From Parasphingorhabdus sp. (GTDB taxonomy: Bacteria; Pseudomonadota; Alphaproteobacteria; Sphingomonadales; Sphingomonadaceae), in NCBI GenBank assembly GCA_030373505.1, contig JAUCYS010000006.1, forward strand, positions 62,001 to 126,000: 64,000 bases of DNA. The letters run 5' to 3'. The notes beneath the pieces are model-generated. The model saw only the letters and a program-made list of their open reading frames with translations. It had not been told where the DNA came from and searched no databases. Of this stretch, positions 1 through 18,484 are shown in pieces; within the stretch, counting starts at the first letter, position 1; each line of letters begins with the position of its first letter. The translations under genes and the position numbers were made by a program.

Positions 1-1433
1 GAACGCTTGCCGGTGCTGCGGCTGAAAGCAGAAGCCGAAGCACCACCGAGGCCGAAGCCCATGGTCGTGTTGCCGATGTTGAACGGCGGCAGGATGGAGA
101 AGAGATGGCAGCCGATATCGGCAGAAACATGATGTTCACCCAGTTCCTGGTCAATCATCTTCATCGCCGCGAAAATAGGCCGCTCGGGGCAGCCGGTACA
201 CAGTCCTGGCGGCCGCGCAGGCACAACGGACTTTAATTTCTTGACGGCCGGTTGGGCCAGCACCGGAGTTGCGTCCGGACGGGGCGGGCGATTGCCCATG
301 ATATGGGGGTCCGTCTCCTCGAGAAAGGCCTCGAGCCCGTGCATGATGGCTTCGACCGAATAGTCGCCGCCCATCGGCAGGACATTCTTGCCATAGATAG
401 TTGCTGATGCACCACTGCGCCGAAGAACGGTGTTGAGCGCCTGCTCCAGATATTCCGGTTGGCCTTCTTCCACCATCAGGATGGCATCTTTGCCTTTTGC
501 AAATTCCTCCATCTCGCTGTCGATCACGGGATAGGTGACATTCATCACATAAAGCGGAATCTGGGTGTTCCCATAAGCATCGGACAGTCCGAGATATTGC
601 AAGGCACGGATCACATTATTGTACATCCCGCCCTGCAACATGATGCCGACCTTGCCGGTTTCCGGTCCGAAAAATTCATTCAGCCGGTTGCTGCGGATGA
701 AATCGATAGCGGCCGGGAGGCGATGGTGGATTTTCTCCTGTTCATGCTCATAGGCGGCGGGGGGCAGCACTATTCTGCCCAGGTCGCGTTTCGGGTTGTT
801 CAATGCATCGTCGATCGAGAAAGGGGGTTTGACATTGTCCTTGGCTATGAAACTGCCATGCATATGGCAGGTGCGCACGCGCACTTCGAGCATCACCGGG
901 GTGTTCGATGCCTCCGACAATTCAAAGCTTTTTTCGATCAGGTCTACGATCTGGCCATGATCGGGGCGCGGGTCCACGAGCCATATTTGTGATTTCATGG
1001 CAAAGGCATGGGTGCGTTCCTGCATGATCGAGGAACCCTCGCCATAGTCTTCGCCAATGATCACCAGCGTGCCGCCGGTTACGCCGCCCGAGGCAAGATT
1101 GGCCAGGGCATCCGAGGCGACATTTGTGCCAACCGTCGATTTCCACGCGACTGCGCCCCGCAAGGGATACATGACCGAAGCGGAAAGCATTGCGGCTGCG
1201 GTGGATTCATTGGCAGAGCTCTGGAAATTCACCCCCAGTTCACCGAGGATATCTTGCGCGTCCGACAGCACGTCCATCAGGTGGGATATGGGCGAGCCCT
1301 GATATCCGCCAACATAAGAAACGCCAGCCTGCAGCAAGCCCTTGGTGATCGCCAGAATTGCCTCTCCCTTGAAGACATCGCCATCTCCAAGGCGCAAATG
1401 CTCAACTTCTTTGGCGAACGATCTTTCTGCCAT
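1..1433 (-). CDS. Indolepyruvate ferredoxin oxidoreductase, alpha subunit (partial, C-terminus beyond window edge)
   Basis: I translated this open frame from the ATG at 1433; it runs without a stop to base 1, giving about 477 residues. The family oxidatively decarboxylates aryl-pyruvates to aryl-acetyl-CoA with thiamine diphosphate and passes electrons to ferredoxin. The N-terminal part (GYQGSPISHLMDVL near residue 43) is the pyrimidine-binding half typical of IorA. The CTGCPERP motif near residue 410 and the ADIGCHLF and TMGFGLGGASA stretches after it mark the start of the TPP-binding half. The Fe-S C-terminal domain or a fused beta subunit would lie outside the window. It is last in a minus-strand run of four genes with gaps of 60-72 bases, so probably an operon. 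The substrate is inferred only from family; another arylpyruvate or 2-oxoacid is possible in this aromatic island. Confidence 0.85.
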   Translation of the reverse strand, partial: MAERSFAKEVEHLRLGDGDVFKGEAILAITKGLLQAGVSYVGGYQGSPISHLMDVLSDAQDILGELGVNFQSSANESTAAAMLSASVMYPLRGAVAWKSTVGTNVASDALANLASGGVTGGTLVIIGEDYGEGSSIMQERTHAFAMKSQIWLVDPRPDHGQIVDLIEKSFELSEASNTPVMLEVRVRTCHMHGSFIAKDNVKPPFSIDDALNNPKRDLGRIVLPPAAYEHEQEKIHHRLPAAIDFIRSNRLNEFFGPETGKVGIMLQGGMYNNVIRALQYLGLSDAYGNTQIPLYVMNVTYPVIDSEMEEFAKGKDAILMVEEGQPEYLEQALNTVLRRSGASATIYGKNVLPMGGDYSVEAIMHGLEAFLEETDPHIMGNRPPRPDATPVLAQPAVKKLKSVVPARPPGLCTGCPERPIFAAMKMIDQELGEHHVSADIGCHLFSILPPFNIGNTTMGFGLGGASASAFSRSTGKR

Positions 1434-1451
1434 AATTATCACCTTTCAATA

Positions 1452-1465: not shown

Positions 1466-1500
1466 GATATAGAGGTGAGGCGAGTCAATCAGGAAAGAAC

Positions 1501-2832
1501 TCAGTCCAGCTTCAACTCCACCCTTTGGGCATTCATCGAAAAGCCGGGCATGTAGCGGCGGAGAATTTCCGCCTCTATCATGGTGCGTTCGCTGGCGTCG
1601 CTGGCCTTGGCCATTTCCGCATCGACCAGCGCTTCATCTCTGCCAAATTCGCGGATACCCGCCAGGTCAGCCCAGACCAGCCAGAAGGATTTTCCGTCGG
1701 GTGCAATCCAGCCCGGAGCGATCTGCGGTGCATATGCGCGAGCGCCCTGATCATCGCCGGGCGTCCATGCGGAATCTTCGTGAATTTGCCGCCAAGGTCC
1801 CCACGGATTTTTCGATACCCATAAGCCGAGATAGCTTGGCTTGCCAAACTCGGTACCATCGGGCGCGCTGCCAATCCCGGCGCTCGCCATCATATATATG
1901 CCAAGGGGTGCGTTATAAACCACGCTGGGCAACCAGGATTCGACGACAAGATCGCCGGGGAACAAATTGGTATAGTTGACCCAGCCAAGAGGAAAATTAT
2001 GCACCGGCTGGCGATCGGCAATATCCGCTGACCAGCGCGCTGTGCCATTGTGGCCATGGCCAGCAAAGAAGCGATAGGCAGAGCGGTCGAGCAGCTTGTT
2101 CTGGGGGACGCGGAACATCACGAGTTGATTCATGAGTCCGTCGACGCTGCCGTTTAGACCATAAACATAAACATAGCCGTCCCGGTTCGCGGCATAAGCC
2201 TTGCCCTGCTGCAAGAATGCAAGCAGCGAAAAGCAGCCATCCGGCTCATTGAAGAAAGGGAAACTGGCAGAGCTCTGCTGCTTCCAGTCTTCCCATATTA
2301 TCGGGCTTGAGCCATTCTGGTTGTGCCAGGTTGCGCCATTATCTGCGGAATAGATAAGCTTGGCACCGGTCCAGCGGCGCGGCCGGTCTTCGGCATCGTC
2401 CAGCGTGGCAAGAAACTGGTACATGTTGGAGCCGATGGCGATGACGCCGTGGCCGTAATAATGCGGCGCGCCTTCTGGATGGGCTGCGCGATCGACATTG
2501 GGATAGCCGTCAAGCATCTGAAAACGCGCCGTCTCTGGCTCGCCTTCCACTTCCCATAATTTTGTACTGTAAAAAGTAGCCGGTGGCGGTGCCCAGCCTG
2601 GTCCGTCATTGACCACGACGATTTGCTTGCCGTTCGCTGCGATGGTCATCTTGTATCCATCGCCCAGGCCGCCGAGCCGCATGATCGAACTGTCAACGGG
2701 CATGGCACCCTTGACAGCCATGGCCGGGTTCGACTGAGGGCGGCGGGCAAGCACGGGCGACAAGGACCCCCCGCAAAAGGTTGCCAGCCCGATCGTCAGC
2801 GACTTTTCCAGAAATTCACGTCTGTGAGTCAT
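1501..2832 (-). CDS. Tat-exported DUF4185-like beta-propeller protein
   Basis: The 443-residue product starts with a twin-arginine signal (RREFLEKSLTIGLATF, residues 4-19), so it is probably exported folded to the periplasm. The body is rich in aromatic residues and contains the YSADNGATW blade-like motif near residue 160 and the segment LGLWVSKNPWGPWRQI near residue 340. Both resemble DUF4185 / sialidase-like propellers that bind or trim carbohydrates or related ligands. The catalytic activity is unknown. It lies 60 bases after the lipoprotein gene and 67 bases before the IorA-like gene, which suggests one transcript. The start is supported by a GGGG tract six bases upstream. The exact domain family is assigned from memory of the motif pattern and is less certain than the export signal. 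Confidence 0.65.
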   Translation of the reverse strand: MTHRREFLEKSLTIGLATFCGGSLSPVLARRPQSNPAMAVKGAMPVDSSIMRLGGLGDGYKMTIAANGKQIVVVNDGPGWAPPPATFYSTKLWEVEGEPETARFQMLDGYPNVDRAAHPEGAPHYYGHGVIAIGSNMYQFLATLDDAEDRPRRWTGAKLIYSADNGATWHNQNGSSPIIWEDWKQQSSASFPFFNEPDGCFSLLAFLQQGKAYAANRDGYVYVYGLNGSVDGLMNQLVMFRVPQNKLLDRSAYRFFAGHGHNGTARWSADIADRQPVHNFPLGWVNYTNLFPGDLVVESWLPSVVYNAPLGIYMMASAGIGSAPDGTEFGKPSYLGLWVSKNPWGPWRQIHEDSAWTPGDDQGARAYAPQIAPGWIAPDGKSFWLVWADLAGIREFGRDEALVDAEMAKASDASERTMIEAEILRRYMPGFSMNAQRVELKLD

Positions 2833-2892: not shown

Positions 2893-3705
2893 TCATTCAA
2901 GCTCGTCAGCGGTCTTCATTTCGACCGTGCCATCTTCGGTGACCTTGAAAAGCGGGTCGGTTCGCTCGCAGTAATATTCCATCATTTCATATTCGGGATT
3001 GCGCCGGTAGCCGTAAGTAAATGTATAGGGCTCTTCAAGCATGACAGGATCTTCGATGGTGATGACATTTTCCATCAGGTCAGGGCCTGTCAGCCGCATC
3101 CGTTCGGTGATCACCATTTCACGGCTGTGCGGGATTTCAAAGAAACGCGTGTCTTCCTTAACGCCCTTGGTGGTTACGACCAGCGTATCGCCTTCCCATT
3201 TCGCCGACGAAAATCCATAAAATGACGGATTAATATCATCAAGCGCGCGCATCGGCTTGTCGAGATAGATGCGCCGTGTCTGGGTCAGGAACTCTGCCAG
3301 AACAGTGATCTGACCGGGGGTCTGCAAAATCTCCAACGGGAAGATCGCGCCCATGATCATCGGCATGCCTTCGGGCAGGCACTGGGTGCTGGGGTCCACC
3401 CGAGGCGTACCCGCCTTGATCAGCGCATCCCGCTCGTCCCGAAGTTTCTTCCACTGCGTGGCATAGGGCTCTTTCAGTTTAGGGCCGTCGCCGGGAACAG
3501 GAAGCTCAAGAAAGGTGTTTTCGTCACCGGCAAAGGGGTCGGGATAAATTTCCCACACGCCCGTAATGTTTGGCTCCGTCACCTGGTCTCCAGACGTGGC
3601 CGCAGGAGCGGCCTGTGCTGCCGACGGGGCCTTGGCATTGACTGCAGCGCAGGCGCCCAGGGAAAGCGCCACCGCTGTCAGCATGGTGAACTTGTGTAAT
3701 ACCAT
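2893..3705 (-). CDS. Predicted lipoprotein of unknown function
   Basis: This 270-residue protein has an N-terminal lipobox (LSLGAC, Cys near residue 19), so it is predicted to be lipid-anchored in the envelope. A low-complexity Ala/Pro/Ser linker follows, then a globular part with the WEIYPDPFAG, STQCLPEGMP and EYYCERTDP segments, the Cys residues of which could pair. A good ribosome-binding site (AGGAGA, five bases before ATG) supports the start. I do not recognise a characterised family. It resembles envelope proteins that accompany TonB receptors and degradation genes in sphingomonads, often next to a DUF6152 gene, as here. A substrate-binding or periplasmic processing role is a guess from context. 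Confidence 0.7.
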   Translation of the reverse strand: MVLHKFTMLTAVALSLGACAAVNAKAPSAAQAAPAATSGDQVTEPNITGVWEIYPDPFAGDENTFLELPVPGDGPKLKEPYATQWKKLRDERDALIKAGTPRVDPSTQCLPEGMPMIMGAIFPLEILQTPGQITVLAEFLTQTRRIYLDKPMRALDDINPSFYGFSSAKWEGDTLVVTTKGVKEDTRFFEIPHSREMVITERMRLTGPDLMENVITIEDPVMLEEPYTFTYGYRRNPEYEMMEYYCERTDPLFKVTEDGTVEMKTADELE

Positions 3706-3777: not shown

Positions 3778-4164
3778 TCACCAGGCGTTCAGGGTGCGAC
3801 CATCCGGGATCTTGATGGTTTTGAGCATACCGCCTGGCTTGCCATTGCGCAGCGGATAGTATGTGACATCCACCTTGTCGCCGGCCTTGATCGTGTTGAA
3901 CTTCCATCCGGCACGGCCCATCATGTTAATGCTGTTGCATTCAAACACATAGCGCTTCATTTTTCCGTTTTCCTGCACGTTCACCACGACAAATGAATGC
4001 GGATTGGTGTAGCGAAACTCGGAAACGGTTACATTTGCCTTCTTTGTGATCTGGGTCTGATCAAACATGGCAAAGGAATGGTGAGCGAAGGCCGGTGTGG
4101 CCAGAGCGGAAGCGAGCAGGCAAAAGCCTCCAAGCGGTCCTGCAATTTTTTTGGATATGGTCAT
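3778..4164 (-). CDS. DUF6152 family periplasmic protein
   Basis: The 128-residue product has a Sec signal peptide ending near AFA (residue 27), followed at once by the characteristic HHSFAMFD segment. That segment and a compact beta-rich domain (YTNPHSFVVVNV, GDKVDVTYYPLRNG) are typical of DUF6152. The function of the family is not established. The fold looks like a small OB or beta-barrel domain, and the two adjacent His residues could bind metal. It is the first gene of the four-gene minus-strand operon and would be transcribed from the 392-base divergent region shared with the membrane regulator at 4557. Confidence 0.75.
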   Translation of the reverse strand: MTISKKIAGPLGGFCLLASALATPAFAHHSFAMFDQTQITKKANVTVSEFRYTNPHSFVVVNVQENGKMKRYVFECNSINMMGRAGWKFNTIKAGDKVDVTYYPLRNGKPGGMLKTIKIPDGRTLNAW

Positions 4165-4556: not shown

Positions 4557-5903
4557 ATGAATATGGACCAGAAGCAGCCGGATCGAGCAGGCATTGACCG
4601 GCACCATGAGCGAATAATCGATGTTGCATCAGATGTTCGAAGCGTTCTGGAAGGCAACCGTTCGGATAAACTGCTGCGTTTGTTCGACTATCTGCTTGAA
4701 AAATCTCTATGCGGCGAAACTCCCTCAGAACAGCAGATTGCTGACGAGGCTTTCGCTGATGACTCCGGTACGGACGGATCACAGGATGCCAACGTCCGGG
4801 TCTATGTATATCGGCTTCGCAAGCTGATCGATTCAACGTTCGCGGGCAAGTCCGGCCCCAGAATAGAAATTCCCGTTGGCAGCTACTGTATCAATCTGGT
4901 TGATCGCGACGAACCCAATTCCCTGCTCCGCGTGGCAAGATGGGCGTCCGGATCTTCCCTGTCTCTGCCGGTTCGGGTCGCGCTATTGGGGCTGGCGGTC
5001 ATGACAATCGGCGGACTGGCGCTGGTCTGGACCAGTCGCGATACCGATCCGCTGGCGAAAACCGTGGCATGGCAGCCTTTTGAGGGCAATGTACGGCCGC
5101 TGATGATCGTTATTGGTGATTATTATCTTTTCGCCAGATTGGATGCAAACAGGAGCAATGCAGATGCTGCGCCGCAACTGGTCTGGGACCGGTCCGTTCC
5201 GACGCGGGAAGATCTTACCATCTTCCAGATGCTCAATCCGACAAAGGTCGAGGATTCTGTCGACTATAATCAGCAGTTTGTCAGCGGCGGCACGATCGAG
5301 GCCTTGTCCAATATCCGGGCTACGATAGCGAAGGTACCTGCGTTTCAGGGCAGATCCTTGCGATTGACGGCTGCATCTCAGCTGACGCCGGAAATGCTGA
5401 CAAATTCTGACATAATCTATGTCGGGCAGTTCAGCGGCATGCCGCTATTGCTGCGGGATCCTCTGGTGCAGGCCTCCGGCTTTGAACTGAGCAAGGGGAA
5501 TGACGCATTGATTGATGCAGGCAATGGGGAACGCTATCAGTCAGATGGCATGATATTGACGGACGAGCGGATTGCCAGGCGCGATTTCGCCTATATCGCT
5601 GGGTTTTCCGGACCTGCGAATAACCGGATTTTGATTGTTGCAGCTCTGGGGGATGCAGGGCTGAAAGAAGCGGCGGAGCTCGCTGGCGACCCGGATCAGC
5701 TGCTGGCAATCAAGGCTGACGCAAAAAGCACAGAAAACGGGTTCGAGGCGCTTTATCGAGTGCGCACCATGAAGAATGTCAATATTGGCGCAACGCTGAT
5801 CCTCGACCGGGTTCTCCGGGCCAGCGGCATTTGGGACAATTCTGAAAATATGCCAGTCTATCGACCGATTGAGGCCTTCAAACTGCAGCAGGCTAATCCA
5901 TGA
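4557..5903 (+). CDS. ToxR/CadC-like membrane-anchored winged-helix regulator (paralogue 1)
   Basis: The 448-residue protein has three parts: a cytoplasmic OmpR/ToxR-type winged helix (about residues 35-117, with VRVYVYRLRKL at 80-90 and KSGPRIEIPVGSY as the wing), one transmembrane helix (about 138-159), and a C-terminal region of about 290 residues, predicted periplasmic. The last contains LMIVIGDYYLFAR, DIIYVGQFSG and RILIVAALGD, which look like beta strands of a Rossmann-like domain. There is no receiver or kinase domain, so it would be a one-component sensor binding DNA from the membrane. It is divergent from the DUF6152/IorA operon and 87 bases upstream of the pseudo-serine hydrolase. 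A clear paralogue lies at 14482-15717. Ligand and targets are unknown. Confidence 0.8.
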   Translation: MNMDQKQPDRAGIDRHHERIIDVASDVRSVLEGNRSDKLLRLFDYLLEKSLCGETPSEQQIADEAFADDSGTDGSQDANVRVYVYRLRKLIDSTFAGKSGPRIEIPVGSYCINLVDRDEPNSLLRVARWASGSSLSLPVRVALLGLAVMTIGGLALVWTSRDTDPLAKTVAWQPFEGNVRPLMIVIGDYYLFARLDANRSNADAAPQLVWDRSVPTREDLTIFQMLNPTKVEDSVDYNQQFVSGGTIEALSNIRATIAKVPAFQGRSLRLTAASQLTPEMLTNSDIIYVGQFSGMPLLLRDPLVQASGFELSKGNDALIDAGNGERYQSDGMILTDERIARRDFAYIAGFSGPANNRILIVAALGDAGLKEAAELAGDPDQLLAIKADAKSTENGFEALYRVRTMKNVNIGATLILDRVLRASGIWDNSENMPVYRPIEAFKLQQANP

Positions 5904-5990: not shown

Positions 5991-7385
5991 ATGATATCAA
6001 TTTCTCGCACTTTTTGTATCGCTCTGTGTCTCACTGTCATGCCGCAGGTCGCGCATGCCGATCCGGTCGACGATCTGGTTCAGGCCGAGATGGCAGCAAG
6101 CAACACGCCGGGCGTGGCGATTTCTATCATGCAAGAAGGCAGGCTTTTGCGCGCACAAGGCTTCGGTCAGGCGGATATCGAACTGGGCGTCCCGGTCCAC
6201 AGCGATACGCTCTTCAAAGCCGGCGCGACCGGCATGCAATTGACGGCTGCGGCGATCATGCTGCTGGTGGAAGATGGAAAATTAAGCCTGGATGCGCCGG
6301 TCACCCAATATTTGAAGGGCGCGCCGCAAAAATGGCACAAGGTGACGATCCGCCAACTGCTGGATCACACCTCCGGACTCCCGGCGACGCCAAACGGCGA
6401 TTTTCGGACAGACTATACCACTGATCAGCTGCTTGCGATTATCGCGGCGGAGGATCTGAACTTTCCTGCGGGATCGCGTTGGCGCTTCAGCTACGCCGGA
6501 TATATCGTATTGGGCTTCGTGATCGAGGAAATAACCGGAGAGCATTGGACGAAATTCTTCCAGCAGCGATTGTTTGACCCACTGGGCATGCATTCCGCTC
6601 GCGGGATCGACGAATTGGCGATCATTCCCAACCGGAGCTCCGGATATGAGGTTCGGGAAGGGAAGTTGCGGAACGCGGAATGGATCTCGCAGACCGCAAA
6701 TTCAACCGCCGATGGCTCAATGTATCTGTCGGTGCTGGATTACGCGGCCTGGGCTCATGCGGTTTCGCAGCGACAGTTGCTTCTCCCCGGCTCCTGGAAG
6801 GAATTGACGCAGCCCGCAAAACTCAATGACGGATCGACCTGTGCTTATTCTCCCGGATGGTTTCTTGCACCAGCGACACGGTCATGGTGGCATTCGGGTA
6901 GCTGGCAGGGCTTTCAGACCTATGCCCTGCGTTATCCCGACAAGGACCTGACCGTAGCCGTTTTTGTCAATGGCGAGGGCGCTGATGTGCAGCATCTTGC
7001 GCGGGGGCTGGCAGCTCTGGTTGATCCTGCGCTCGCTCGCGACCGCTCTGCTCCCATGCCGGAGGCCGATCCCGCCGCAACGGCAAGAGTTCGTGTCCTG
7101 CTTGAAGCTATCGCTTCAGGGCAGTCAAACTATGCGGATTATGCTGATTTCGCCCAGCTCGATTTTGATGAACTGACGGCTCTCTATGGCGGGATGGTCA
7201 GCGAACTGGGTGGGCTCGAAGAGGTTGCCCTGTTCGACAAGCGGAAAGGGTGCGCTGAAACCGCCTCTCGCTATCGGGCGCGCTACAAGGGCGGCATTAT
7301 GGAGGTGCGCATCGGATTGACCGACACTGGTAAGGTCAGCAATCTGGAGATCCTGCCCGTTCGTGATTGGAACGAACCGCTTTAG
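5991..7385 (+). CDS. Beta-lactamase/serine hydrolase-fold protein lacking catalytic residues (pseudoenzyme)
   Basis: The 464-residue product has a Sec signal peptide (cleavage near AHA, residue 23) and the class C beta-lactamase / EstB-like fold, with TLFKAG before and QLTAAAIMLLVEDGKL after the active-site position. The nucleophile motif SxxK is replaced by ATGM (residues 79-82). The second motif YxN is replaced by FSY (166-168). Only the third motif HSG (301-303) is kept. The DNA around 6226-6240 reads in frame with no sign of a frameshift, so the protein is probably made but cannot act as a serine hydrolase. Residues beyond about 345 form an extra C-terminal domain. It follows the membrane regulator, so a ligand-binding or signalling role in the periplasm is possible. 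Confidence 0.8.
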   Translation: MISISRTFCIALCLTVMPQVAHADPVDDLVQAEMAASNTPGVAISIMQEGRLLRAQGFGQADIELGVPVHSDTLFKAGATGMQLTAAAIMLLVEDGKLSLDAPVTQYLKGAPQKWHKVTIRQLLDHTSGLPATPNGDFRTDYTTDQLLAIIAAEDLNFPAGSRWRFSYAGYIVLGFVIEEITGEHWTKFFQQRLFDPLGMHSARGIDELAIIPNRSSGYEVREGKLRNAEWISQTANSTADGSMYLSVLDYAAWAHAVSQRQLLLPGSWKELTQPAKLNDGSTCAYSPGWFLAPATRSWWHSGSWQGFQTYALRYPDKDLTVAVFVNGEGADVQHLARGLAALVDPALARDRSAPMPEADPAATARVRVLLEAIASGQSNYADYADFAQLDFDELTALYGGMVSELGGLEEVALFDKRKGCAETASRYRARYKGGIMEVRIGLTDTGKVSNLEILPVRDWNEPL

Positions 7386-8962: not shown

Positions 8963-9021
8963 GATACCCCTTAAATGATCGATTTCGTTGCGATCCACCA
9001 TAGTTCCATTTGACATCTGTG

Positions 9022-11171: not shown

Positions 11172-11588
11172 TCAGTCGGCCGGAACCAGATCGTCGACCA
11201 TGCGTAGGCGGATGTCGTCAGGCCAGGGAATGGCTTTCTGCGAGGCCATGTCCATGCACACAAGGGTGGCATTGGCTTTCATCCGGTCCGTCCCGTCTGC
11301 GGCGAAAACGGCTTCGTAGGAACAGCTGCTTCGACCGACCCGCGTCGGCGTTATCTCGATAGTCAGCACGTCGCCAAGCATACTGGGCGCCAAAAATTCT
11401 GCCTCGACCTGCACGGAAGGGACGCCGATACCCCGATTAAGATGCATGCTCCGGAAATCGCTGCCCAGTGCGAGCGCGAACCAGTCCTCCACTGCACCGT
11501 TCAGCATTTCAAAATAGCGCGGATAAAACACGATACCCGCGCCATCAACATGGGCAAAGCGAACCTGGGTAGAAGTCTGAAATGCCAT
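11172..11588 (-). CDS. 4-hydroxybenzoyl-CoA thioesterase-like hotdog protein
   Basis: The 138-residue hotdog-fold protein begins with RFAHVDGAGIVFYPRYFEML, which includes the Asp that acts in Pseudomonas-type 4-hydroxybenzoyl-CoA thioesterases and the long helix that follows. It would hydrolyse an aryl-CoA to the free acid. It starts two bases after the MarR stop and is the third gene of the hydroxylase-MarR-thioesterase run, so it is probably co-translated. In this setting the natural substrate would be the hydroxylated aryl-CoA (gentisyl-CoA or 5-hydroxyanthraniloyl-CoA), releasing the acid for the ring-cleaving dioxygenase. Confidence 0.85.
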   Translation of the reverse strand: MAFQTSTQVRFAHVDGAGIVFYPRYFEMLNGAVEDWFALALGSDFRSMHLNRGIGVPSVQVEAEFLAPSMLGDVLTIEITPTRVGRSSCSYEAVFAADGTDRMKANATLVCMDMASQKAIPWPDDIRLRMVDDLVPAD

Positions 11589-11590
11589 GT

Positions 11591-12112
11591 TCAGTGATCC
11601 CCGCTCAGTTCAGATCGGACGCGACCGAGCAGTTGCGCCAACATATCCATGTCGGATTCCGATACGCCATCGAATATCTCGGAAATCCAGCGATGATGCG
11701 CCTCTGCCAGAATCATGAACCGCTGCTTTCCGGCGGCGGTCAGGGATACGATGGCGGAACGGGCATCTTTGGGGTTGATGTGCGTTTCAACCAGGCCGTT
11801 TTCCTGCAATTGCCTGACAACGAGCGTCACATTCCCGTTTGATACGAGCAGAGCACGCGACAAGGCGCTCATCCGCAAGCCCTCTGGCGCGCGGTGAAGT
11901 GCGGCCAGTACATCAAAGCGTGGCAGGGTGGTCTTGAACTCGTCCTCGAATCTCCGGCGCAACTGTTTTTCGCCGATCTTGGCGCAGGCCAGCAGCCTGA
12001 CCCACATCCGCAGCTCGGAAGACCCTGCTCCGGCAGGGAGAGCTTCTTCGTTAGACGTATTTGACAATGTAATGGCCTCATCTTCGGTTGGAGCGGTATT
12101 TTTTCCCGTCAT
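11591..12112 (-). CDS. MarR family transcriptional regulator
   Basis: The 173-residue protein is a MarR-type winged-helix dimer. About 30 N-terminal residues precede the conserved core, with LPRFDVLAALHRAPEGLRMS leading into the DNA-binding helices, the recognition region VSNGNVTLVVRQLQENGLVE and the wing NPKDARSAIVSLT. MarR proteins commonly repress catabolic genes and are released by an aromatic acid or its CoA ester. Its start overlaps the hydroxylase stop by four bases (ATGA) and its stop is two bases from the thioesterase start, so it is made with the pathway enzymes. The palindrome at 9022-9049 is its most likely operator. Confidence 0.9.
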   Translation of the reverse strand: MTGKNTAPTEDEAITLSNTSNEEALPAGAGSSELRMWVRLLACAKIGEKQLRRRFEDEFKTTLPRFDVLAALHRAPEGLRMSALSRALLVSNGNVTLVVRQLQENGLVETHINPKDARSAIVSLTAAGKQRFMILAEAHHRWISEIFDGVSESDMDMLAQLLGRVRSELSGDH

Positions 12113-14409
12113 TGTGCGCCTTTTGCTTTTTCGGCAAGCCTGCGCGCCTGTTCCTGTCCCAAGATATAGGCGGGAGGAACAAACTGCGTGTGGTCGTTGG
12201 CCGCAGCCGATGCGCGCAGTGTCCAGACCGGATCGGCAAGATGGGGCCGGCCCAGCGCCACAAGATCAGCGCGGCCTGCCGTGACGATGGAGTTGACCTG
12301 ATCGGCTTCGAATATGTTACCAACCGCGATGACGGAAATTCCTGCTTCGTTGCGGATCTGGTCTGCAAAGGGAGTCTGGAACATCCGTCCGTATACCGGT
12401 TTCGCGTCAGGGCTCGTTTCGCCCGCGGACACATCGATCAGGTCCACCCCGGCATTTTTAAACGCGCGCGCGGTGACAACTGCATCGGCAGGTGTCATGC
12501 CCTGTTCCCCAAGCCAGTCGTTCGCCGAGAAACGCACGGCCAGCGGTTTCGAGGAAGGCCACACCTGGCGTACGGCTTCAATGATCCGGAGCGGATAGCG
12601 CAGACGATTCTCCAGACTTCCGCCAGGGTTGTCGGTCCGCGCGTTGAGTGCGGGCGACAGGAAGCTGGCCAGCAACGTTCCATGGCCGGCATGGATCTCG
12701 ATCATGTCGAACCCGGCCTTTTCTGCACGCTGCGCAGCGGCAACGAAATCCTCACAGATTCGGTCGAGATCCGCATTGTCCGCTGCCTTGGGCACGAGAC
12801 CTCCTGTCCGCCAGGGTTGGGCGGATGCAGCGATCAGGGGCCATGGTTCTTCCAGGGGCACATCCATGCCCTTGGCTCCCTGGGGAATCTGGCAACTTCC
12901 GCGCGGTCCGGCATGGCTGAGCTGTGCGCACATTCGTGCCTTGCTGTGTTGATGAGCGAAGGCCACCATCTCTTGCCAGCTGTCCAGCTGCTCATCAGCA
13001 TAAAGTCCGGGGCAGGCCGGGGTAGTCCGCCCTTCAGAGGAAACGGCCAGCGATTCCGTGATGATCAGCCCCGCTCCGCCCAATGCCCGCGCGCCATAGT
13101 GCACGGCGTGAAAAGGGGTGGTGCATCCCCGCTCGTCGGCGCTGTAGGTCAGCATTGCAGGAACAACCACCCGGTTGGCCAGGTGCATTTCGCCCAGAGT
13201 GAAGGGGGTGAACATGGGCTGTGGCGGACTATGGTCCTGCGAGGCTCCGCCCGAAAACCAGCGTTCAACGCCGCTCAGCCAATCGGGATCGCGGACCCTG
13301 AGATTTTCATGGCTGACCCGCTGACTGCGGGTCATCAGCGAATAGGCGAATTGTGGCAGCTCGAACCCGATATAGCGATCCAGCGTTTCGAACCACTCGG
13401 TCGAATTGCGGGCGCTGTTCTGGATTTTGAGAACCTCGATATGCCGTTGATCGCGATAGTCACTCAGCGCGTCTTTTAGCGCTGCACGGTCATCAAGTCC
13501 CGGTCGATCAAGGACTTCGGCAAGCTTGATCGCGTCCTCAAGAGCCAGTTTTGTTCCCGACCCGATGGAAAAATGCGCGGTATGCGCGGCGTCGCCCAGC
13601 AGGACAACATTGTCAAAGGACCAGTTTTCGCAAACCACGCGACGAAAATTGATCCAGGCGGCTGACCCGCGCAGATGCGTTGCATTCGTGATGAGGGGAT
13701 TGCCATCCAGGTGCCGCGCGAAAATCTTTTCACACAAGGCGATCGATTCAGGCTGCTCCATGTTTTGAAAGCCAAGGCCTTCCCAGGTTTCCGGTGAGCA
13801 TTCGACGATGAAGGTGGAGTGAGTTTCGTCAAAGCGATAGGCATGCGCCCATATCCAGCCTGCATCTGTCTTTTCAAAAAGAAATGCAAAGGCATCGAAC
13901 TGCTTTGTGGTTCCCAACCAGCAAAATTTGTTGGTTCGCTGGTCGACCGTAACCCCCAGTTTTTCAGCATTGGCCGTCCGCACTTCGCTGTTGATGCCAT
14001 CGGCCGCTACGACCAGATCAAAATCGGCAAAGCGGGACAGGTCGGCATCGAACGGAAATTCGTTATGAATGGTGACGCCTAGCGCCTTCGCGCGATCGCT
14101 CAATATTTCAAGCAATCGCTTGCGGCCAATGCCGATGAAGCCATGGCCGGAAGATATCACGGATTGGCCGGAAACCTGCACCTCGATATCATCCCAATGG
14201 GCAAGGCTGCTGGCCATTTCCTCCGCGCTCACCGAATCATTTTGCATCAGATTCGTCATGGTCTGGTCGGAAAAAACCACGCCCCAGCCAAAAGTCTCGC
14301 CCGACCGGTTCCGCTCGAATACATGAATATCATGTGCGGGATCGCGCAATTTGGCCGAGATGGCGAAATATAACCCGGCAGGTCCTCCGCCCAAGCATGC
14401 TATACGCAT
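12109..14409 (-). CDS. Fused FAD monooxygenase / Old Yellow Enzyme: salicylyl-CoA 5-hydroxylase or 2-aminobenzoyl-CoA monooxygenase/reductase family
   Basis: The 766-residue protein joins an N-terminal p-hydroxybenzoate hydroxylase-like FAD domain (CLGGGPAGLYFAI at 6-18, GDAAHTAHFSIGSGTKLALE near 275) to a C-terminal FMN-binding OYE domain starting near residue 399. This architecture is shared by salicylyl-CoA 5-hydroxylase, which makes gentisyl-CoA, and 2-aminobenzoyl-CoA monooxygenase/reductase. The neighbouring thioesterase and gentisate-type dioxygenase favour the first. In the OYE domain the usual HGYL segment reads HGTL: the expected proton-donor Tyr is Thr578 (codon at 12676-12678). 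Thus ring-reducing activity may be altered or lost while His573 and His576 remain. It overlaps the MarR gene by four bases and has ATTCTCC-complement AGGAG before its ATG. Confidence 0.85.
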   Translation of the reverse strand: MRIACLGGGPAGLYFAISAKLRDPAHDIHVFERNRSGETFGWGVVFSDQTMTNLMQNDSVSAEEMASSLAHWDDIEVQVSGQSVISSGHGFIGIGRKRLLEILSDRAKALGVTIHNEFPFDADLSRFADFDLVVAADGINSEVRTANAEKLGVTVDQRTNKFCWLGTTKQFDAFAFLFEKTDAGWIWAHAYRFDETHSTFIVECSPETWEGLGFQNMEQPESIALCEKIFARHLDGNPLITNATHLRGSAAWINFRRVVCENWSFDNVVLLGDAAHTAHFSIGSGTKLALEDAIKLAEVLDRPGLDDRAALKDALSDYRDQRHIEVLKIQNSARNSTEWFETLDRYIGFELPQFAYSLMTRSQRVSHENLRVRDPDWLSGVERWFSGGASQDHSPPQPMFTPFTLGEMHLANRVVVPAMLTYSADERGCTTPFHAVHYGARALGGAGLIITESLAVSSEGRTTPACPGLYADEQLDSWQEMVAFAHQHSKARMCAQLSHAGPRGSCQIPQGAKGMDVPLEEPWPLIAASAQPWRTGGLVPKAADNADLDRICEDFVAAAQRAEKAGFDMIEIHAGHGTLLASFLSPALNARTDNPGGSLENRLRYPLRIIEAVRQVWPSSKPLAVRFSANDWLGEQGMTPADAVVTARAFKNAGVDLIDVSAGETSPDAKPVYGRMFQTPFADQIRNEAGISVIAVGNIFEADQVNSIVTAGRADLVALGRPHLADPVWTLRASAAANDHTQFVPPAYILGQEQARRLAEKAKGAQ

Positions 14410-14481: not shown

Positions 14482-15717
14482 TCAGGGTAGCGGATTCAGC
14501 AGAACCAGGCGACGGCTTGCCGGGCGGCTCGGCAGAGTTGTGACTTCGAACAAGGCTTCGAAATGGCGGGCTGAACCCAGTTGCTTTTTCAAAGATGCCA
14601 GGGCTTTGGGCGAGTGCAGCAGATCGGCGATTGCTGCGGTTCCCCGATCACCCAGTCCGGCCATAATCATCAATGTGCGGCCTGCGGGCCTCGCCTGTAT
14701 AGAGAGATAGCCGTAATCGGGCTCGGGCTTCGACTGACTTTCGACATAGACCTGACCCTTGAACACTGTTCCGCTTTGTCTATCGATAAGGCGATCATAT
14801 GCTGTCAGTCGCAAGCGGGAACGAGAGAAAGCATATTGATGCAGCATGCCCAGCTGCGACAACCTGCCGACATAAATAATATCGTGGGACTGCAGCTCTT
14901 CGGTACGGATCGATGAGACCGGCATCATTGCCGCGTCTTTTCCTTTGCCACTGGCCGATGCTGTCAGCGCTTCCTGCACTTTCCAGGCAATCTCGACTGT
15001 TTCTATGGGTGCAAATCTGAGGCTGAAATCGTAGAGTTCATAGAATTTTTCCGGATGAGCTATCAAAAAGCGGCCAAATTCTTCGCGTGTCTGGACTTCG
15101 GGATCCAGTATCATGCGCTGCGTAACGAGCTGGTCTTCCGTTTCGGCCAGCAGCAAATTATCCCCTATGGCGAACAATGGATCGTGCCAAGCGTTGGTCC
15201 CCGCAAACAGGTCCGGTCGCGCATTCACCGCGCCCGATGTCCGATAACGGTCGGTCGGCCATATCTGCCAGCTCACAAAAAACAGGCCAGCGCACAGAAT
15301 GAACGACAGTCCGATGCTGAGCGTCGGATTTATCATCAGGAGCCGGGTGATACGGGCCAGCGGGCCAAGGGGCGGCTCTGGAGCATCCACCTCCTCCAGC
15401 ACAATCCGATATTCACCCTTGGGGATGACCAGGCGGGTGCCCGATTTTCCGCGGTAATAATCATCAATGCGTTTGCGGAGGCGATGAACATAAACGCGGA
15501 CGCCCGAATCTGTATTGGTGTCGAGAGATGCCTTGTTCCCAAATAGCGCCAGGGCGATCTCGATTTCTTTTGGCGACCTTTCATCCATAGATCGTTCAAC
15601 AAGCAAATCGAACAGCGCCACTTGATTGGATGAACGGCCCTTCGCCAGAACCGCGCGAAACTTGGCTGTTTCGCTCTCGAAACGGGCTAGAAGATTTTTC
15701 TCCAGTTTCGGTTTCAT
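14482..15717 (-). CDS. ToxR/CadC-like membrane-anchored winged-helix regulator (paralogue 2)
   Basis: The 411-residue protein repeats the plan of the regulator at 4557: winged helix (VRVYVHRLRKR at 73-83, KSGTRLVIPKGEYRI as wing), one transmembrane helix (about 131-152) and a long C-terminal domain with PLFAIGDNLLLAE, DIIYVGRLSQLG and TLMIMAGLGDRG. The matching strands show that the two share a sensor-domain fold, though overall identity is low. The N-terminus also has PKEIEIALALFG in place of a longer acidic linker. It stands 72 bases upstream of the hydroxylase operon on the same strand and is divergent from the TonB receptor, so it could control uptake and the first enzymatic step. Ligand unknown. 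Confidence 0.8.
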   Translation of the reverse strand: MKPKLEKNLLARFESETAKFRAVLAKGRSSNQVALFDLLVERSMDERSPKEIEIALALFGNKASLDTNTDSGVRVYVHRLRKRIDDYYRGKSGTRLVIPKGEYRIVLEEVDAPEPPLGPLARITRLLMINPTLSIGLSFILCAGLFFVSWQIWPTDRYRTSGAVNARPDLFAGTNAWHDPLFAIGDNLLLAETEDQLVTQRMILDPEVQTREEFGRFLIAHPEKFYELYDFSLRFAPIETVEIAWKVQEALTASASGKGKDAAMMPVSSIRTEELQSHDIIYVGRLSQLGMLHQYAFSRSRLRLTAYDRLIDRQSGTVFKGQVYVESQSKPEPDYGYLSIQARPAGRTLMIMAGLGDRGTAAIADLLHSPKALASLKKQLGSARHFEALFEVTTLPSRPASRRLVLLNPLP

Positions 15718-16057: not shown

Positions 16058-18484
16058 TTGAACGGGAACCACACCAACAGCCGCGCGCTGTTTATGAGAG
16101 CCTTTATGATATCGAGCGCGGTTATTCCGCTCTCCATGGCGATGCCCGCATATGGACAGGACGCGCAGGGCGACACCGTTCAAAATTCCGATAGTGAAGC
16201 GGCATTCCCGGGGGAAATCGTTGTCACGGCAACCCGCAAATCTACGGTGCTCAGCCGGACGCCGGCAAGCATCGTCGCCAAGGGTCAGGAAGAACTGGAC
16301 GTTCAGGGTGTCCGTTCGATTGCTGACCTTGCCTCTATAACGCCGGGCATCACCTTCGGGCAAAGTGCGACGGTGTACGGCACCGGCCAGACCACGATTG
16401 CTATCCGCGGGGTCGATTCCCAGTCAGGAATCCCCACCACCGGCATTTATATTGATGACACGCCGGTACAGACCCGTGTTGGCGTCAGCCCGTCGCTCGG
16501 CAATGTCTACCCGCAAGTCTTCGACCTCGAGCGCGTAGAAGTGTTGCGCGGACCGCAGGGCACATTGTTCGGCAGCGGTTCGGTCGGCGGCGCAATCCGC
16601 TTCATCATGCCCAAGCCCAATTACGACGACCTTAGCGTCTATGCGCGTTCCGAACTGGCGACTACCAAACATGGTGCGGCCAGTTACGAAGGCGGCGTGG
16701 CCGTGGGGGCGCCGATCGTACAGGACAAGATCGCGTTCAGGGCCAGTGCCTGGCTCAGGCGCGATGGCGGCTATATCGACCGGCTTGATCCGTATACCAA
16801 GCAACTGGTCCGGAAGGACAGCAACAGCCAGGACAGTTTTTCCGCAAGACTGGCCTTGGGTTTCCGCTTGGGAGACATGCTGACGCTGACTCCATCGGTC
16901 TACCATCAAGATCTCAAAATCAACGACGGATCCCGGTTCGAATTGGCGACTTCCAACCCTGAATCGGGCGATCTGCGCCTGAGCCTTAACCAGCGTGCGG
17001 AGCCGCGCAAGGACAAGTTCACCTTGCCTGCCCTCAAGGCAGAGCTCGATCTTGGCGGCGTATCGCTGATTTCCGATACGTCCTATTTCCATCGCACGAC
17101 GGAAACGATCAACGACGACACGTCGCTCAGCTACGTCTTCTCGGGCGGCTTCAGCGGAGGTCCGTTCCCGGCAGGCTTCGAGGATTATGCGCCGAGCACA
17201 TTGAACCTCACCAAACAGACGGCGTTCACTCAAGAGCTTCGTCTGCAGGACAATAACCAGTCTGATCGCCTCAACTGGATCGCAGGCTTGTTCTACCAGA
17301 AGTCCTACGTGCGTGATCAGTATGCGGCCAGGGATGAGCGTTTGCTCGATGTCATCAATCTGTTCCAGGAATCGATCGGCGAAGCGCCGTTTGACAGTCT
17401 TACCGATTCGTTTTTCGGAACCGAACTCTATCAGGGGCTGTATTCAAATTTTGTCCGCAACGAGCACCGCGACCGGCAATATGCTGCCTATGCCCAGGCT
17501 GACTACGAAGTTATTGACCGGCTCAAGCTGACAGCGGGTGCGCGTTACACGATTGCGAAATACGAATTTACCGGATTTGGAGCAGGGCCGGTCCTTTCCA
17601 GTGAAGGTCAGACCGACAGGGCCGATACGACCAGCAAGACTTTTACGCCAAAGTTCGGCGTCTCGTTCCAGGCCGATCAGAACAATCTATTCTATGCAAG
17701 TGCCAGCAAGGGTGTCCGCGGATCCGGTGTTGCGTCGCCGGTCGGCGGCAACTGCGTTGACGATGCTGCGGCGATCGGTATCGATCCCTACGCTACGCTC
17801 GACGTGAAACCCGATTCCATCTGGAGCTATGAAATCGGCAGCAAAAACCGGCTGTTTGATGGCAAGCTGGCGGTTGACCTTTCGGCCTACCGCGTTGACT
17901 GGAAAAACGTACAGACCCTGATCGTCTTGCCCCAGTGCACGATCCAGACCACGCTCAACCTCGGAACCGCCAAGATTGACGGTGTCGATCTGGCGCTTTC
18001 GATCAGGCCGGTTACGGGACTGACCTTGGGTGCTTCGGCTTCCTACGTGAATGCCCGGTATACCTCTTCGATCCCCGGACCGGGCAATACTGTGGTCAGA
18101 AAAGCAGGCGAGCCGTTCCCCGGAGTGGCACCCTGGACGATCCAGCTCAACGGCGAATATGTCCAGCCTGTGGGCGACGCGGAAGTCTATGGCCGGGCGG
18201 ATTTCAGCTACAGCAGCCGGATCAAGAAACCTCTCGATCTCAACTCGCCGCTGACCGATCCGAACTTGCCACGGCCGCCTGCCACCTCGCAGCTCGACCT
18301 GCGTCTCGGAAGCAAATTTGATCTTTCCGATGATACGAGCCTGGATGTCAGCATATTCATGAATAACGTCACCAACAGTCAGCCTCTGCTGGCGCTGTTC
18401 CATGAAACTCCAGGCTCGACATATTATCGTGCCGGTACGTTCCGTCCGCGCACGATTGGCCTGACGGTTTCGCTCAGAAAATAG
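16058..18484 (+). CDS. TonB-dependent outer-membrane receptor
   Basis: The 808-residue protein has a signal peptide (cleavage near AYG, residue 33), a plug domain beginning EIVVTATRK (the region serves as TonB box), the plug segment VEVLRGPQGTLFGSGSVGGA, and a 22-strand-type barrel ending in the aromatic-poor LTVSLRK. It would import a scarce or bulky substrate at the expense of TonB energy. The chosen start is TTG at 16058 because GAGGGAG lies seven bases upstream; the next in-frame ATG (16094) lacks such a site and would shorten the N-region. The receptor closes the aromatic island, is divergent from membrane regulator 2 and ends at a strong terminator, so the aromatic substrate or its conjugate is the likely cargo. 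Confidence 0.92.
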   Translation: MNGNHTNSRALFMRAFMISSAVIPLSMAMPAYGQDAQGDTVQNSDSEAAFPGEIVVTATRKSTVLSRTPASIVAKGQEELDVQGVRSIADLASITPGITFGQSATVYGTGQTTIAIRGVDSQSGIPTTGIYIDDTPVQTRVGVSPSLGNVYPQVFDLERVEVLRGPQGTLFGSGSVGGAIRFIMPKPNYDDLSVYARSELATTKHGAASYEGGVAVGAPIVQDKIAFRASAWLRRDGGYIDRLDPYTKQLVRKDSNSQDSFSARLALGFRLGDMLTLTPSVYHQDLKINDGSRFELATSNPESGDLRLSLNQRAEPRKDKFTLPALKAELDLGGVSLISDTSYFHRTTETINDDTSLSYVFSGGFSGGPFPAGFEDYAPSTLNLTKQTAFTQELRLQDNNQSDRLNWIAGLFYQKSYVRDQYAARDERLLDVINLFQESIGEAPFDSLTDSFFGTELYQGLYSNFVRNEHRDRQYAAYAQADYEVIDRLKLTAGARYTIAKYEFTGFGAGPVLSSEGQTDRADTTSKTFTPKFGVSFQADQNNLFYASASKGVRGSGVASPVGGNCVDDAAAIGIDPYATLDVKPDSIWSYEIGSKNRLFDGKLAVDLSAYRVDWKNVQTLIVLPQCTIQTTLNLGTAKIDGVDLALSIRPVTGLTLGASASYVNARYTSSIPGPGNTVVRKAGEPFPGVAPWTIQLNGEYVQPVGDAEVYGRADFSYSSRIKKPLDLNSPLTDPNLPRPPATSQLDLRLGSKFDLSDDTSLDVSIFMNNVTNSQPLLALFHETPGSTYYRAGTFRPRTIGLTVSLRK

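Follow-up and report, generated by a model that had tools for sequence, protein, structure and literature searches.

The plant hormone auxin and tryptamine are both built around an indole ring. Bacterial removal of auxin and indole is reported to affect root growth (PMC9613470). The iad loci of auxin degradation are marked by the genes iorB/iadB and iotA/iadA (PMC9613470), and in B. japonicum IAA was found to raise iotA expression 30.7-fold and that of iorB 7.6-fold (PMC3788728). Although IadA and IadB serve as markers of the loci and auxin induces them strongly, the available sections of these two reports assign them no role. Gentisate-type routes for anthranilate and indole were proposed by Cain in 1968 and by Claus and Kutzner in 1983 (PMC4539516, PMC6221969), and, according to the available part of a 2018 review (PMC6221969), no gene was known for the gentisate branch of indole degradation.

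In this study, we analysed a stretch of 64,000 nucleotides from Parasphingorhabdus sp., a relative of Sphingobium (the window), in which positions 1 to 18,484 carry the genes listed below. The conserved gene run resembles an almost complete indole-ring route, most of it uncharacterised. We lean towards the view that the island serves the catabolism of an indole-ring compound, working via isatin, 2-aminobenzoyl-CoA and 5-hydroxyanthranilate, and we infer every reaction of this route from gene families, neighbourhoods and residue changes. The island offers testable roles for IadA/IadB and for the gentisate-branch gene of indole degradation. All genes named in the initial annotation were found at or near the positions it gave. 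Together with further genes, they make up the following list:

1..1442, minus strand: IorA/IadA-type 2-oxoacid:ferredoxin oxidoreductase alpha subunit (TIGR03336, 288 bits for the whole protein; TPP-type motif, C-terminal CxxCxxC)
1501..2832, minus: DUF4185 protein (PF13810; 73/63% identity in two Sphingobium islands)
2893..3705, minus: 270-aa protein, no family match (76/69% in the two Sphingobium islands)
3778..4164, minus: DUF6152 protein (PF19649; 69/68% in the two Sphingobium islands)
4557..5903, plus: membrane-anchored regulator-like protein, ToxR-like by eye from the translation (52/41% in the Sphingobium islands; no Pfam/NCBIfam match)
5991..7385, plus: beta-lactamase-fold serine hydrolase (PF00144, 210 bits; 62/50% in the Sphingobium islands)
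7395..8024, minus: flavin-reductase-like split-barrel protein (PF01613; nearest solved chains 3bpk, 4z85)
8024..9016, minus: NIT4-like nitrilase-superfamily enzyme (PF00795; best solved match NIT4, 370 bits)
9063..10190, plus: gentisate-dioxygenase-family bicupin (TIGR02272, 317 bits; best solved match 3bu7, 571 bits)
10212..11123, plus: fumarylacetoacetate-hydrolase (FAH)-family enzyme, proposed acylpyruvase (PF01557, 248 bits; adjoins the cupin across loci)
11172..11588, minus: hotdog acyl-CoA thioesterase (PF13279)
11591..12112, minus: MarR regulator beside the fused hydroxylase (PF12802; nearest solved chain 3boq)
12109..14409, minus: fused FAD hydroxylase/old-yellow-enzyme protein (NF006101, 1111 bits, cut-off 1078)
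14482..15717, minus: second membrane-anchored regulator-like protein, from the translation (51/40% in the Sphingobium islands; no family match in profile searches)
16058..18484, plus: TonB-dependent receptor, probable uptake (PF00593, PF07715; 75/63% in the Sphingobium islands)

The left flank and the conservation of the island

The island extends ~28 kb leftward of base 1. The IorA-type gene, whose C-terminus is cut by the window edge, encodes 721 aa when entire (G000:C20:61277-63442). The initial annotation saw no acyl-CoA ligase and proposed to extend leftward for one and for iorB; the absence holds inside the window, but both IorB and a CoA ligase lie directly left of its edge. The left flank also carries a thiolase-like protein, zinc-ribbon/SDR proteins, two MarRs, an isatin hydrolase, an amine-oxidase trio, an aldehyde dehydrogenase and a permease.

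Genes of this flank resemble iadFGHI, iadAB and iadR of auxin degradation. Both iad marker genes are present, and the iadF, G, H, I and MarR set is 40–75% identical to those of Ruegeria, Sulfitobacter, Sagittula and Shinella. As in the iad loci of Variovorax, Bradyrhizobium, Achromobacter and Ruegeria pomeroyi, IorA/IorB and MarR occur with ligase, thiolase-like, SDR and cyclase genes in the order F-G-H-I. The closest solved chain of one left-flank MarR is 7kym, an entry deposited with an IAA-MarR study. The auxin- or tryptophan-type setting with MarR control, suggested in the initial annotation, is supported by these families and neighbourhoods. Unlike in the iad loci, no iadCDE oxygenase was found in the island; the amine-oxidase trio stands at its top, and the fused hydroxylase is linked to it along with the ring-cleaving cupin, the FAH enzyme and the nitrilase. 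For the iadD/iadE Rieske oxygenase, no IadD orthologue was found in this genome (assembly 88% complete), where the best match is 27% identical with 75 bits; among 11 related genomes, best matches were 29–36% identical in 10, and the eleventh had none at E 1e-20. The Ring_hydroxyl_B profile gave a match below cut-off, and these searches found no enzyme that first oxygenates the indole ring.

Most island genes recur in two Sphingobium genomes. A shorter core of IorAB, isatin hydrolase, fused hydroxylase, thioesterase, cupin, FAH and nitrilase is found in Novosphingobium-type loci and Caballeronia; at five loci (L048, L050, L053, L054, L055) IorA, IorB and all the others of this core lie within ~12 kb, together with the flavin reductase. 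Caballeronia SBC1 has the run IorA-IorB-thioesterase-fused enzyme-cupin-FAH-nitrilase-racemase, followed by MarR and cyclase. Recurring in Sphingobium, other sphingomonads and Caballeronia, the gene set is not a chance neighbourhood. The expected co-conservation was observed in the closest relatives but not throughout. The island cupin belongs to a clade set apart from other family members in our comparisons, and neither IorA nor the fused enzyme was found in the fetched stretch of 12 of the 29 loci with a clade cupin (L128, L130, L131, L140, L141, L144, L159-L164), which hold the cupin/FAH/nitrilase part without them; the cupin set therefore serves other settings too, or receives its substrate from elsewhere. 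In R. pomeroyi, which has the IorAB/cupin set, the fused enzyme keeps an intact reductase site and is encoded at another place on the megaplasmid, within a tryptophan/anthranilate-type cluster. No fused hydroxylase was found in the fetched stretches of the Sulfitobacter THAF37, Sagittula and Shinella clusters.

Isatin hydrolase, IorAB and the source of the CoA ester

The proposed route begins with an indolic amine, from which the amine-oxidase trio, the permease and the aldehyde dehydrogenase would produce an acid carrying an acetate side chain. Genes of the iadF, iadG and iadH type (ligase, thiolase-like, zinc-ribbon/SDR) would then remove this side chain as acetyl-CoA, so that isatin remains; a retro-aldol cut is probable here, with steroid side-chain removal as an analogy. 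The isatin hydrolase would convert isatin to isatinate (2-aminophenylglyoxylate), a 2-oxoacid that IorAB may oxidatively decarboxylate to 2-aminobenzoyl-CoA. Because IorAB would yield the CoA ester directly, no ligase would be needed at that stage. The IorA-type step as the source of CoA, one of the alternatives raised initially, is favoured because some compact relatives have no CoA ligase in their run; none is annotated in the Caballeronia SBC1 stretch.

The best solved matches of the island "cyclase" are isatin hydrolases (357 bits), with kynurenine formamidases at ≤26 bits. For the isatin hydrolase LaIHA, 11 residues were named as Mn ligands or pocket residues (PMC6117287), and a hand count on the alignment finds 10 of them kept, including all metal ligands, with Tyr204 replaced by Leu. 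The isatin hydrolase step is predicted from this close homology to characterised enzymes. Relatives of IorB and of the isatin hydrolase have 40 plasmid records in common, of 51 and 57, where 0.04 would be expected with kinship not corrected.

The island IorA is 87/82% identical to the copies in the two Sphingobium islands, and IorB scores 686 bits against NF006179, over the cut-off of 348. The family name, and the strong IAA induction of genes to which the available part of the report assigns no role (PMC3788728), would suit a canonical indolepyruvate oxidoreductase that turns tryptophan-derived indolepyruvate into indoleacetyl-CoA and feeds the pathway top. We regard this as very improbable, since the 288 bits of the entire IorA fall under the TIGR03336 cut-off of 651 (indolepyruvate ferredoxin oxidoreductase alpha), and the pairing of IorAB with isatin hydrolase is seen again in what appears to be an indole cluster holding a styrene/indole-monooxygenase gene. 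Moreover, another TPP enzyme and an AMP ligase adjoin the isatin hydrolase of Deinococcus, with no IorAB matched in that stretch.

One observation in Variovorax counts against the isatinate role of IadAB. An iadC-K2 construct in an iad-deletion strain fully restored anthranilate (PMC12633357); as iadA is gene 72 and iadC gene 70 (PMC9613470), iadA is absent from this construct, so IadAB is not needed for anthranilate formation. In favour of the isatinate role, the same strain strongly accumulated C8H7NO3 and C7H7NO (PMC12633357). C8H7NO3 is the formula of isatinate.

Ring hydroxylation, ring cleavage and the nitrilase

The fused flavoenzyme would next hydroxylate C5 of 2-aminobenzoyl-CoA, the hotdog thioesterase would free 5-hydroxyanthranilate, and the cupin would cut between the carboxyl-bearing and amino-bearing carbons. 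The amino carbon would thereby become an amide, giving maleamoylpyruvate, from which FAH and a nitrilase-type amidase would release pyruvate, a C4 acid and ammonia. The aryl-CoA order given in the initial annotation (5-hydroxylation, CoA removal, gentisate-type ring opening, FAH) is supported by families and neighbourhoods. This route would explain a nitrilase in a ring-cleavage cluster, and it predicts that a change of pathway went along with the inactivation of one half of the fusion enzyme.

At the reductase-site positions of old yellow enzymes, all 13 cupin-linked fused enzymes have lost active-site residues, versus 3 of 106 others. The window enzyme has Thr578 where 103 of the 106 relatives not linked to a cupin have Tyr, and Leu420 at the Cys-equivalent site; the intact reductase site of 2-aminobenzoyl-CoA monooxygenase/reductase is thus not present. 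The three unlinked enzymes with residue loss come from genomes that all carry the cupin elsewhere, versus 0 of 15 intact-site genomes. The loss maps to two clades of the fused-enzyme tree and therefore counts as about two events. With the reductase half decommissioned, the ring would stay aromatic. These data bear on whether the enzyme is instead a monooxygenase/reductase that dearomatises 2-aminobenzoyl-CoA for beta-oxidation-like steps, with the cupin acting on another substrate. Both reductase histidines are kept in the window enzyme, and the fused relatives of Azospirillum, Deinococcus and Ruegeria sit with SDR, enoyl-CoA hydratase and acyl-CoA dehydrogenase genes; nevertheless, the residue changes, their association with the cupin and the lack of an enoyl-CoA hydratase among the annotated island proteins make this quite improbable.

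The initial annotation held salicylate to be equally open. The right half would then run from salicylyl-CoA through gentisyl-CoA and gentisate to cleavage, with IorA, isatin hydrolase and nitrilase as unrelated neighbours. The fused protein indeed passes NF006101, the salicylyl-CoA 5-hydroxylase family, although the substrate cannot be read from that name. The cupin is under the TIGR02272 (gentisate 1,2-dioxygenase) cut-off of 442, yet its best solved match 3bu7 carries the gentisate dioxygenase label, and the 12 loci mentioned above have the cupin/FAH set without IorA and the fused enzyme. However, the window has no ligase beside the hydroxylase, and IorAB, isatin hydrolase and nitrilase recur together with hydroxylase and cupin. 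Gentisate cleavage gives no amide, yet a nitrilase-family gene is near 23 of the 29 clade cupins versus 0 of 34 other gentisate-dioxygenase-like cupins. The isatin hydrolase, the iadFGHI-type genes and this cupin-tied nitrilase point to an anthraniloyl substrate, and salicylate is disfavoured as rather improbable.

The catalytic triad of the nitrilase superfamily is Glu-Lys-Cys, and the corresponding strings FPE, RKL and CWEN are present in the island enzyme. To our knowledge, the NIT4-like group is not known to act as amidases. The true-nitrilase sequence type, with NIT4 as the best solved match and 189 bits for TIGR04048 (Nit6803; cut-off 503), would fit an enzyme that turns a nitrile into an acid at the pathway start, e.g. 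indole-3-acetonitrile, or one whose nitrile substrate is unrelated to the pathway. Of 15 alphaproteobacterial genomes with a close relative, 11 have no clade cupin, and 3 of 7 clade-cupin genomes lack such a nitrilase, so the nitrilase is not exclusive to the cupin setting. On the other hand, it travels with cupin and FAH even where the stretch shows no iad side-chain genes, and a second branch, ~35% identical, occupies the same place in other clusters. A nitrile substrate is therefore unlikely, and a downstream amidase is the more likely role.

Taken together, we tentatively put forward an undescribed indole-ring route as possible in all of its parts: entry of an indolic amine; IorAB as a CoA-acylating isatinate:ferredoxin oxidoreductase; the fused enzyme as a 2-aminobenzoyl-CoA 5-hydroxylase, derived from a monooxygenase/reductase whose reductase half was disabled at least twice in evolution; and the cupin as 5-hydroxyanthranilate dioxygenase with the nitrilase as amidase for its amide product. 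The Rhodobacterales/Shinella clusters without a local hydroxylase would take 5-hydroxyindoles, e.g. serotonin, as this ring already carries the hydroxyl group.

Comparison with described catabolic routes

The lower pathway of nicotinate and nicotine uses maleamate amidase and maleate isomerase, and the island would share its logic from a C4 amide via maleate to fumarate; the Caballeronia racemase matches maleate isomerase (343 bits). It differs in that the island amidase would belong to the nitrilase superfamily, its amide substrate would come from an aminophenol ring, and the window has no isomerase-like gene beside the cupin. Where other clusters have a maleate-isomerase-like gene, the island has a flavin-reductase gene, and the two were never matched together in the 29 clade-cupin loci.

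The Streptomyces sdg salicylyl-CoA/gentisate route presumably shares the aryl-CoA 5-hydroxylase, CoA removal and gentisate-type dioxygenase, whereas the island has IorAB and isatin hydrolase upstream and a nitrilase downstream, and its relatives also have maleate-isomerase-like genes. The Azoarcus evansii 2-aminobenzoyl-CoA monooxygenase/reductase has the same fused hydroxylase and old-yellow-enzyme architecture as the window enzyme. It acts on an aryl-CoA substrate (PMC4539516), as the window enzyme would, but the window has no adjacent ligase, changed reductase residues and a ring-cleaving dioxygenase instead of beta-oxidation genes. Finally, the routes of Cain and of Claus and Kutzner have 5-hydroxyanthranilate or isatin as intermediates, as the island route would; the latter differs by its proposed CoA esters and amide step, with free gentisate not required.

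Gene content and conservation of the island

The assembly (3.13 Mb, 88% complete) carries the window as bases 62001-126000 of contig C20, and ORF calls and family scans bore out the gene list of the initial annotation. The products of 4557-5903 and 14482-15717 had no family match, and their translations look like membrane-anchored DNA-binding regulators; their counterparts in the related stretch L047 group together. To the left of the window, IorB was found on the same strand as IorA (NF006179, 686 bits against a cut-off of 348), together with the genes below.

Genes of the left flank
Left of the window, IorA strand: two MarR regulators
Left of the window, IorA strand: AMP-forming CoA ligase
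Left of the window, IorA strand: thiolase-like lipid-transfer protein
Left of the window, IorA strand: ChsH2-type zinc ribbon fused to an SDR
Left of the window, IorA strand: "cyclase" (predicted isatin hydrolase)
Further left, IorA strand: amino-acid permease
Further left, IorA strand: phenylacetaldehyde-dehydrogenase-like ALDH
Further left: SnoaL-type protein
Further left: EamA transporter
Further left: DAO-family oxidase
Further left: Rid protein
Further left: tyramine oxidase subunit B (NF004848, 667 bits, cut-off 362)

PepSY_TM, HupE/UreJ, two DUF6644 genes and two genes without a family match are also conserved further left, and DUF4185, a 270-aa protein, DUF6152 and a serine hydrolase are co-conserved with the island. 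The DUF6152/270-aa/DUF4185 trio has a second copy on the same contig (G000:C20:7246-10177), near another TonB receptor. The amine-oxidase genes suggest, by inference, an amine such as tryptamine as the top substrate. A block left of the island (G000:C20:19532-33122; aminotransferase, ALDHs, TPP enzyme, hydrolase) is kept in Sphingobium HBC34; the CECT 9361 stretch gave matches to only a few of these genes. An Lrp regulator and alanine dehydrogenase (window 18615-20319) adjoin the island and are probably not part of it; both had matches in Sphingobium CECT 9361 and none in the stretch from HBC34.

Most island genes lie on one contig in Sphingobium CECT 9361 and Sphingobium HBC34, with respective identities of 86/79% for the isatin hydrolase, 87/82% for IorA, 84/81% for the nitrilase, 89/85% for the cupin, 76/73% for the fused hydroxylase and 84/83% for tyramine oxidase subunit B. 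The exceptions were one MarR and the EamA gene, each present in one of the two islands, and the SnoaL-type gene, which is absent from both and for which no relationship to NTF2-like genes from the Sagittula and Ruegeria clusters was detected. Since the Sphingobium blocks are rearranged, content and partial order are shared, but not full order. In five further loci (L048, L050, L053, L054, L055) nine consecutive genes fall inside about 12 kb, namely IorB, IorA, isatin hydrolase, fused enzyme, thioesterase, FAH hydrolase, cupin, nitrilase and flavin reductase; the order in L048 leaves no space for a CoA ligase. The betaproteobacterium Caballeronia SBC1 has IorA-IorB-thioesterase-fused enzyme-cupin-FAH-nitrilase-racemase, then MarR and the cyclase, and no CoA ligase is annotated in its fetched stretch. 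Isatin hydrolase and IorA were present in all 11 genomes searched, which were picked by their related loci and not at random. Plasmid records held an IorB relative in 51 cases, an isatin hydrolase in 57 and both in 40, against a chance expectation of 0.04 that ignores kinship.

The nearest plasmid relatives of the window IorB (about 60%) and isatin hydrolase (72-75%) come from Sulfitobacter THAF37, Sagittula, Ruegeria and Shinella. For the cupin and nitrilase, the nearest relatives are those of Sphingobium and Novosphingobium. IorAB, isatin hydrolase, the fused enzyme and a nitrilase-like gene of weak, partial similarity (22-27% identity) also occur in Tsukamurella, where the island cupin was unmatched. 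The Variovorax plasmid match to IorAB sits in a different cluster.

Isatin hydrolase, IorAB and the auxin-degradation loci

The "cyclase" is a predicted isatin hydrolase, as isatin hydrolases A (357 bits) and B (247 bits) top its matches among solved structures, against 26 bits for kynurenine formamidases. Isatinate (2-aminophenylglyoxylate) is a 2-oxoacid, and enzymes of the 2-oxoacid:ferredoxin oxidoreductase family yield acyl-CoA, as in the conversion of phenylglyoxylate to benzoyl-CoA. IorAB would therefore convert isatinate directly to 2-aminobenzoyl-CoA, an assignment that we did not find among the open-access literature matches listed. Counted along the alignment, 10 of 11 isatin hydrolase residues discussed in PMC6117287 are kept (Trp59, Trp61, His69, His73, Asp75, His79, Trp80, Asp193, His207, Gln219), and Tyr204 is replaced by Leu.

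Alloyangia has a styrene/indole-monooxygenase gene close to IorAB and isatin hydrolase. The Alloyangia pacifica stretch L137 (13498-30008), with this monooxygenase, the fused hydroxylase, isatin hydrolase, IorA and IorB, is an apparent indole-degradation cluster. In Azospirillum thermophilum, IorAB comes first in a run with a Rieske oxygenase, an AMP ligase and the fused enzyme. On a Deinococcus psychrotolerans plasmid (L136, 11986-22210), which also carries the fused hydroxylase, the isatin hydrolase has an AMP ligase and a TPP enzyme of another kind as neighbors; IorAB was unmatched in this stretch, and these two neighbors apparently take its position as a non-orthologous replacement.

In stretch L004 (12044-14427) the thiolase-like protein adjoins the zinc-ribbon/SDR fusion, a pair similar to the Ltp2-ChsH2 retro-aldolase of steroid breakdown. 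By this analogy, such a pair would fit the cutting of dioxindole-3-acetyl-CoA to isatin and acetyl-CoA. The order of ligase, thiolase-like protein, SDR and cyclase in the island agrees with the iadF, G, H and I annotations in PMC12633357, and iadA/iadB, corresponding to IorA/IorB, are described as markers of the iad locus in PMC9613470. The nearest solved chain of one left-flank MarR is 7kym (129 bits), whose entry was deposited with a study of IAA-binding MarRs. In B. japonicum, iotA rose 30.7-fold and iorB 7.6-fold under IAA, with no role given in the available text (PMC3788728).

The published Variovorax data bear on this reading in both directions. When a strain deleted for iad received only iadC to K2, it strongly accumulated C8H7NO3 and C7H7NO (PMC12633357). 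PMC9613470 numbers iadA as gene 72 and iadC as gene 70, so the construct lacks iadA and, by inference, iadB. Isatinate has the formula C8H7NO3, and a build-up of it would be expected if IadAB were lost. However, the same paper reports that anthranilate was restored in full (PMC12633357), so IadAB is not required to form it, which counts against our reading.

The fused hydroxylase, the cupin and the nitrilase

2-Aminobenzoyl-CoA monooxygenase/reductase reportedly has separate hydroxylating and reducing sites, going by a title of Langkau from 1995, and its reaction is described in PMC4539516. A pathway that goes on to cleave the ring should not reduce it. We compared 119 fused enzymes, the window one (12109-14409, minus strand) included, at four old-yellow-enzyme positions of the reductase half (YqjM numbering). 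At least one reductase residue was lost in all 13 cupin-linked enzymes versus 3 of 106 others, where linkage was decided from the fetched stretch. Among the 13, the first His is Gln in 10, the following Tyr is changed in 10 and the Tyr28 equivalent in one; the window enzyme keeps both histidines, but its Tyr site is occupied by Thr and its Cys-equivalent site by Leu. In a quick tree (SH-aLRT support, midpoint root) the altered enzymes split into two supported groups apart from each other, one of 14 sphingomonad rows and the other a Caballeronia/Cupriavidus pair, which implies about two loss events. All three genomes with altered but unlinked enzymes (L049, L051, L056) proved to carry the clade cupin elsewhere (75-83%), against none of the 15 genomes sampled from the 103 intact-site enzymes, one of which has a 40% relative.

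By sequence identity, the island cupin (9063-10190, plus strand), a proposed 5-hydroxyanthranilate dioxygenase, is in a set apart from ordinary gentisate dioxygenases. The plasmid search gave 17 matches of at least 58% identity, the others among the matches listed reaching at most 45%, and 385 alphaproteobacterial genomes gave 7 matches of 64-100% identity and another 67 that did not exceed 44%. Gentisate-type C1-C2 cleavage of 5-hydroxyanthranilate would, on chemical grounds, turn the amino carbon into an amide, and gentisate cleavage gives an acid, so that no amidase is required.

We assembled 29 clade cupins (the window, 8 from a further search, 14 from plasmid stretches, which account for all but 3 of the 17 plasmid clade matches, and 6 from the 385-genome search), and scored neighboring genes by tblastn (E 1e-8, over 40% of the query). 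A nitrilase-family gene was present in the fetched stretch of 23 of these 29, versus none of 34 lower-identity cupins, the best-scoring 34 of the 67 and some on short contigs. L130 and L164 are seemingly one Tistrella record; without L164 the count is 22/28 (Fisher p 1e-11, ignoring kinship). The six without nitrilase were L052, whose cupin is close to the stretch end, L127, L141, L159, L160 and L161. The initial annotation had left salicylate equally open; we rejected this, since a nitrilase accompanies the clade cupin and gentisate would not need one. The nitrilase as an entry step was likewise rejected, as it travels with cupin and FAH even where the iad side-chain genes are unmatched in the stretch.

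The nitrilase place is filled by two branches, about 35% identical, in different lineages. Of the 385 genomes, 15 carry a close relative of the window nitrilase, and 4 of these 15 have the clade cupin; such a nitrilase is absent from three of the seven clade-cupin genomes; some nitrilase relative is carried by 548 plasmid records. The nitrilase is thus more widely spread and not exclusive to this setting. A racemase-family gene occurs in 8 of the 29 loci (L126, L129, L131-L133, L138, L140, L144), and the Caballeronia protein matches maleate cis-trans isomerase (343 bits), which fits a route from maleamate to maleate and fumarate. A flavin-reductase-like gene occurs in 18 (window, L046-L048, L050, L053-L055, L128, L130, L141-L143, L159, L160, L162-L164), and no locus has both, as if the two replaced each other.

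A proposed indole-ring route and known pathways

The conserved catabolic island is real, and it is best read as an indole-ring route via isatinate, 2-aminobenzoyl-CoA and 5-hydroxyanthranilate, all activities being predicted. An IadD orthologue (R. pomeroyi query) was not found in this 88% complete genome (best-scoring match 27% identical), and in 10 of 11 related genomes selected by locus the best matches reached 29-36%, so the indole-ring oxygenation before IadF is unaccounted for. Profile searches for this first oxygenase gave two sub-threshold matches (Ring_hydroxyl_B) and 23 matches, none specific (Acyl-CoA_dh_2). The flavin reductase was considered as the partner of an IacA-type oxygenase, and no evidence for the pairing was found.

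IorA and the fused enzyme are both absent from the fetched stretch in 12 of the 29 clade-cupin loci, which means that cupin and FAH also occur as a set of their own; this and the wider spread of the nitrilase slightly lower our confidence. No fused hydroxylase was seen in the stretches fetched from Ruegeria, Sulfitobacter THAF37, Sagittula and Shinella, which do contain IorAB, thioesterase, nitrilase, cupin, FAH and the racemase-family gene. IadD is present in Ruegeria and Sulfitobacter, and the Ruegeria fused enzyme, whose reductase site is intact, is encoded at a remote position within a tryptophan/anthranilate-type cluster. As a bold idea, these four clusters might take 5-hydroxyindoles as candidate substrates. 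With steps that we did not find assigned in the literature searched, the island is a variant of the known auxin and indole degradation pathways.
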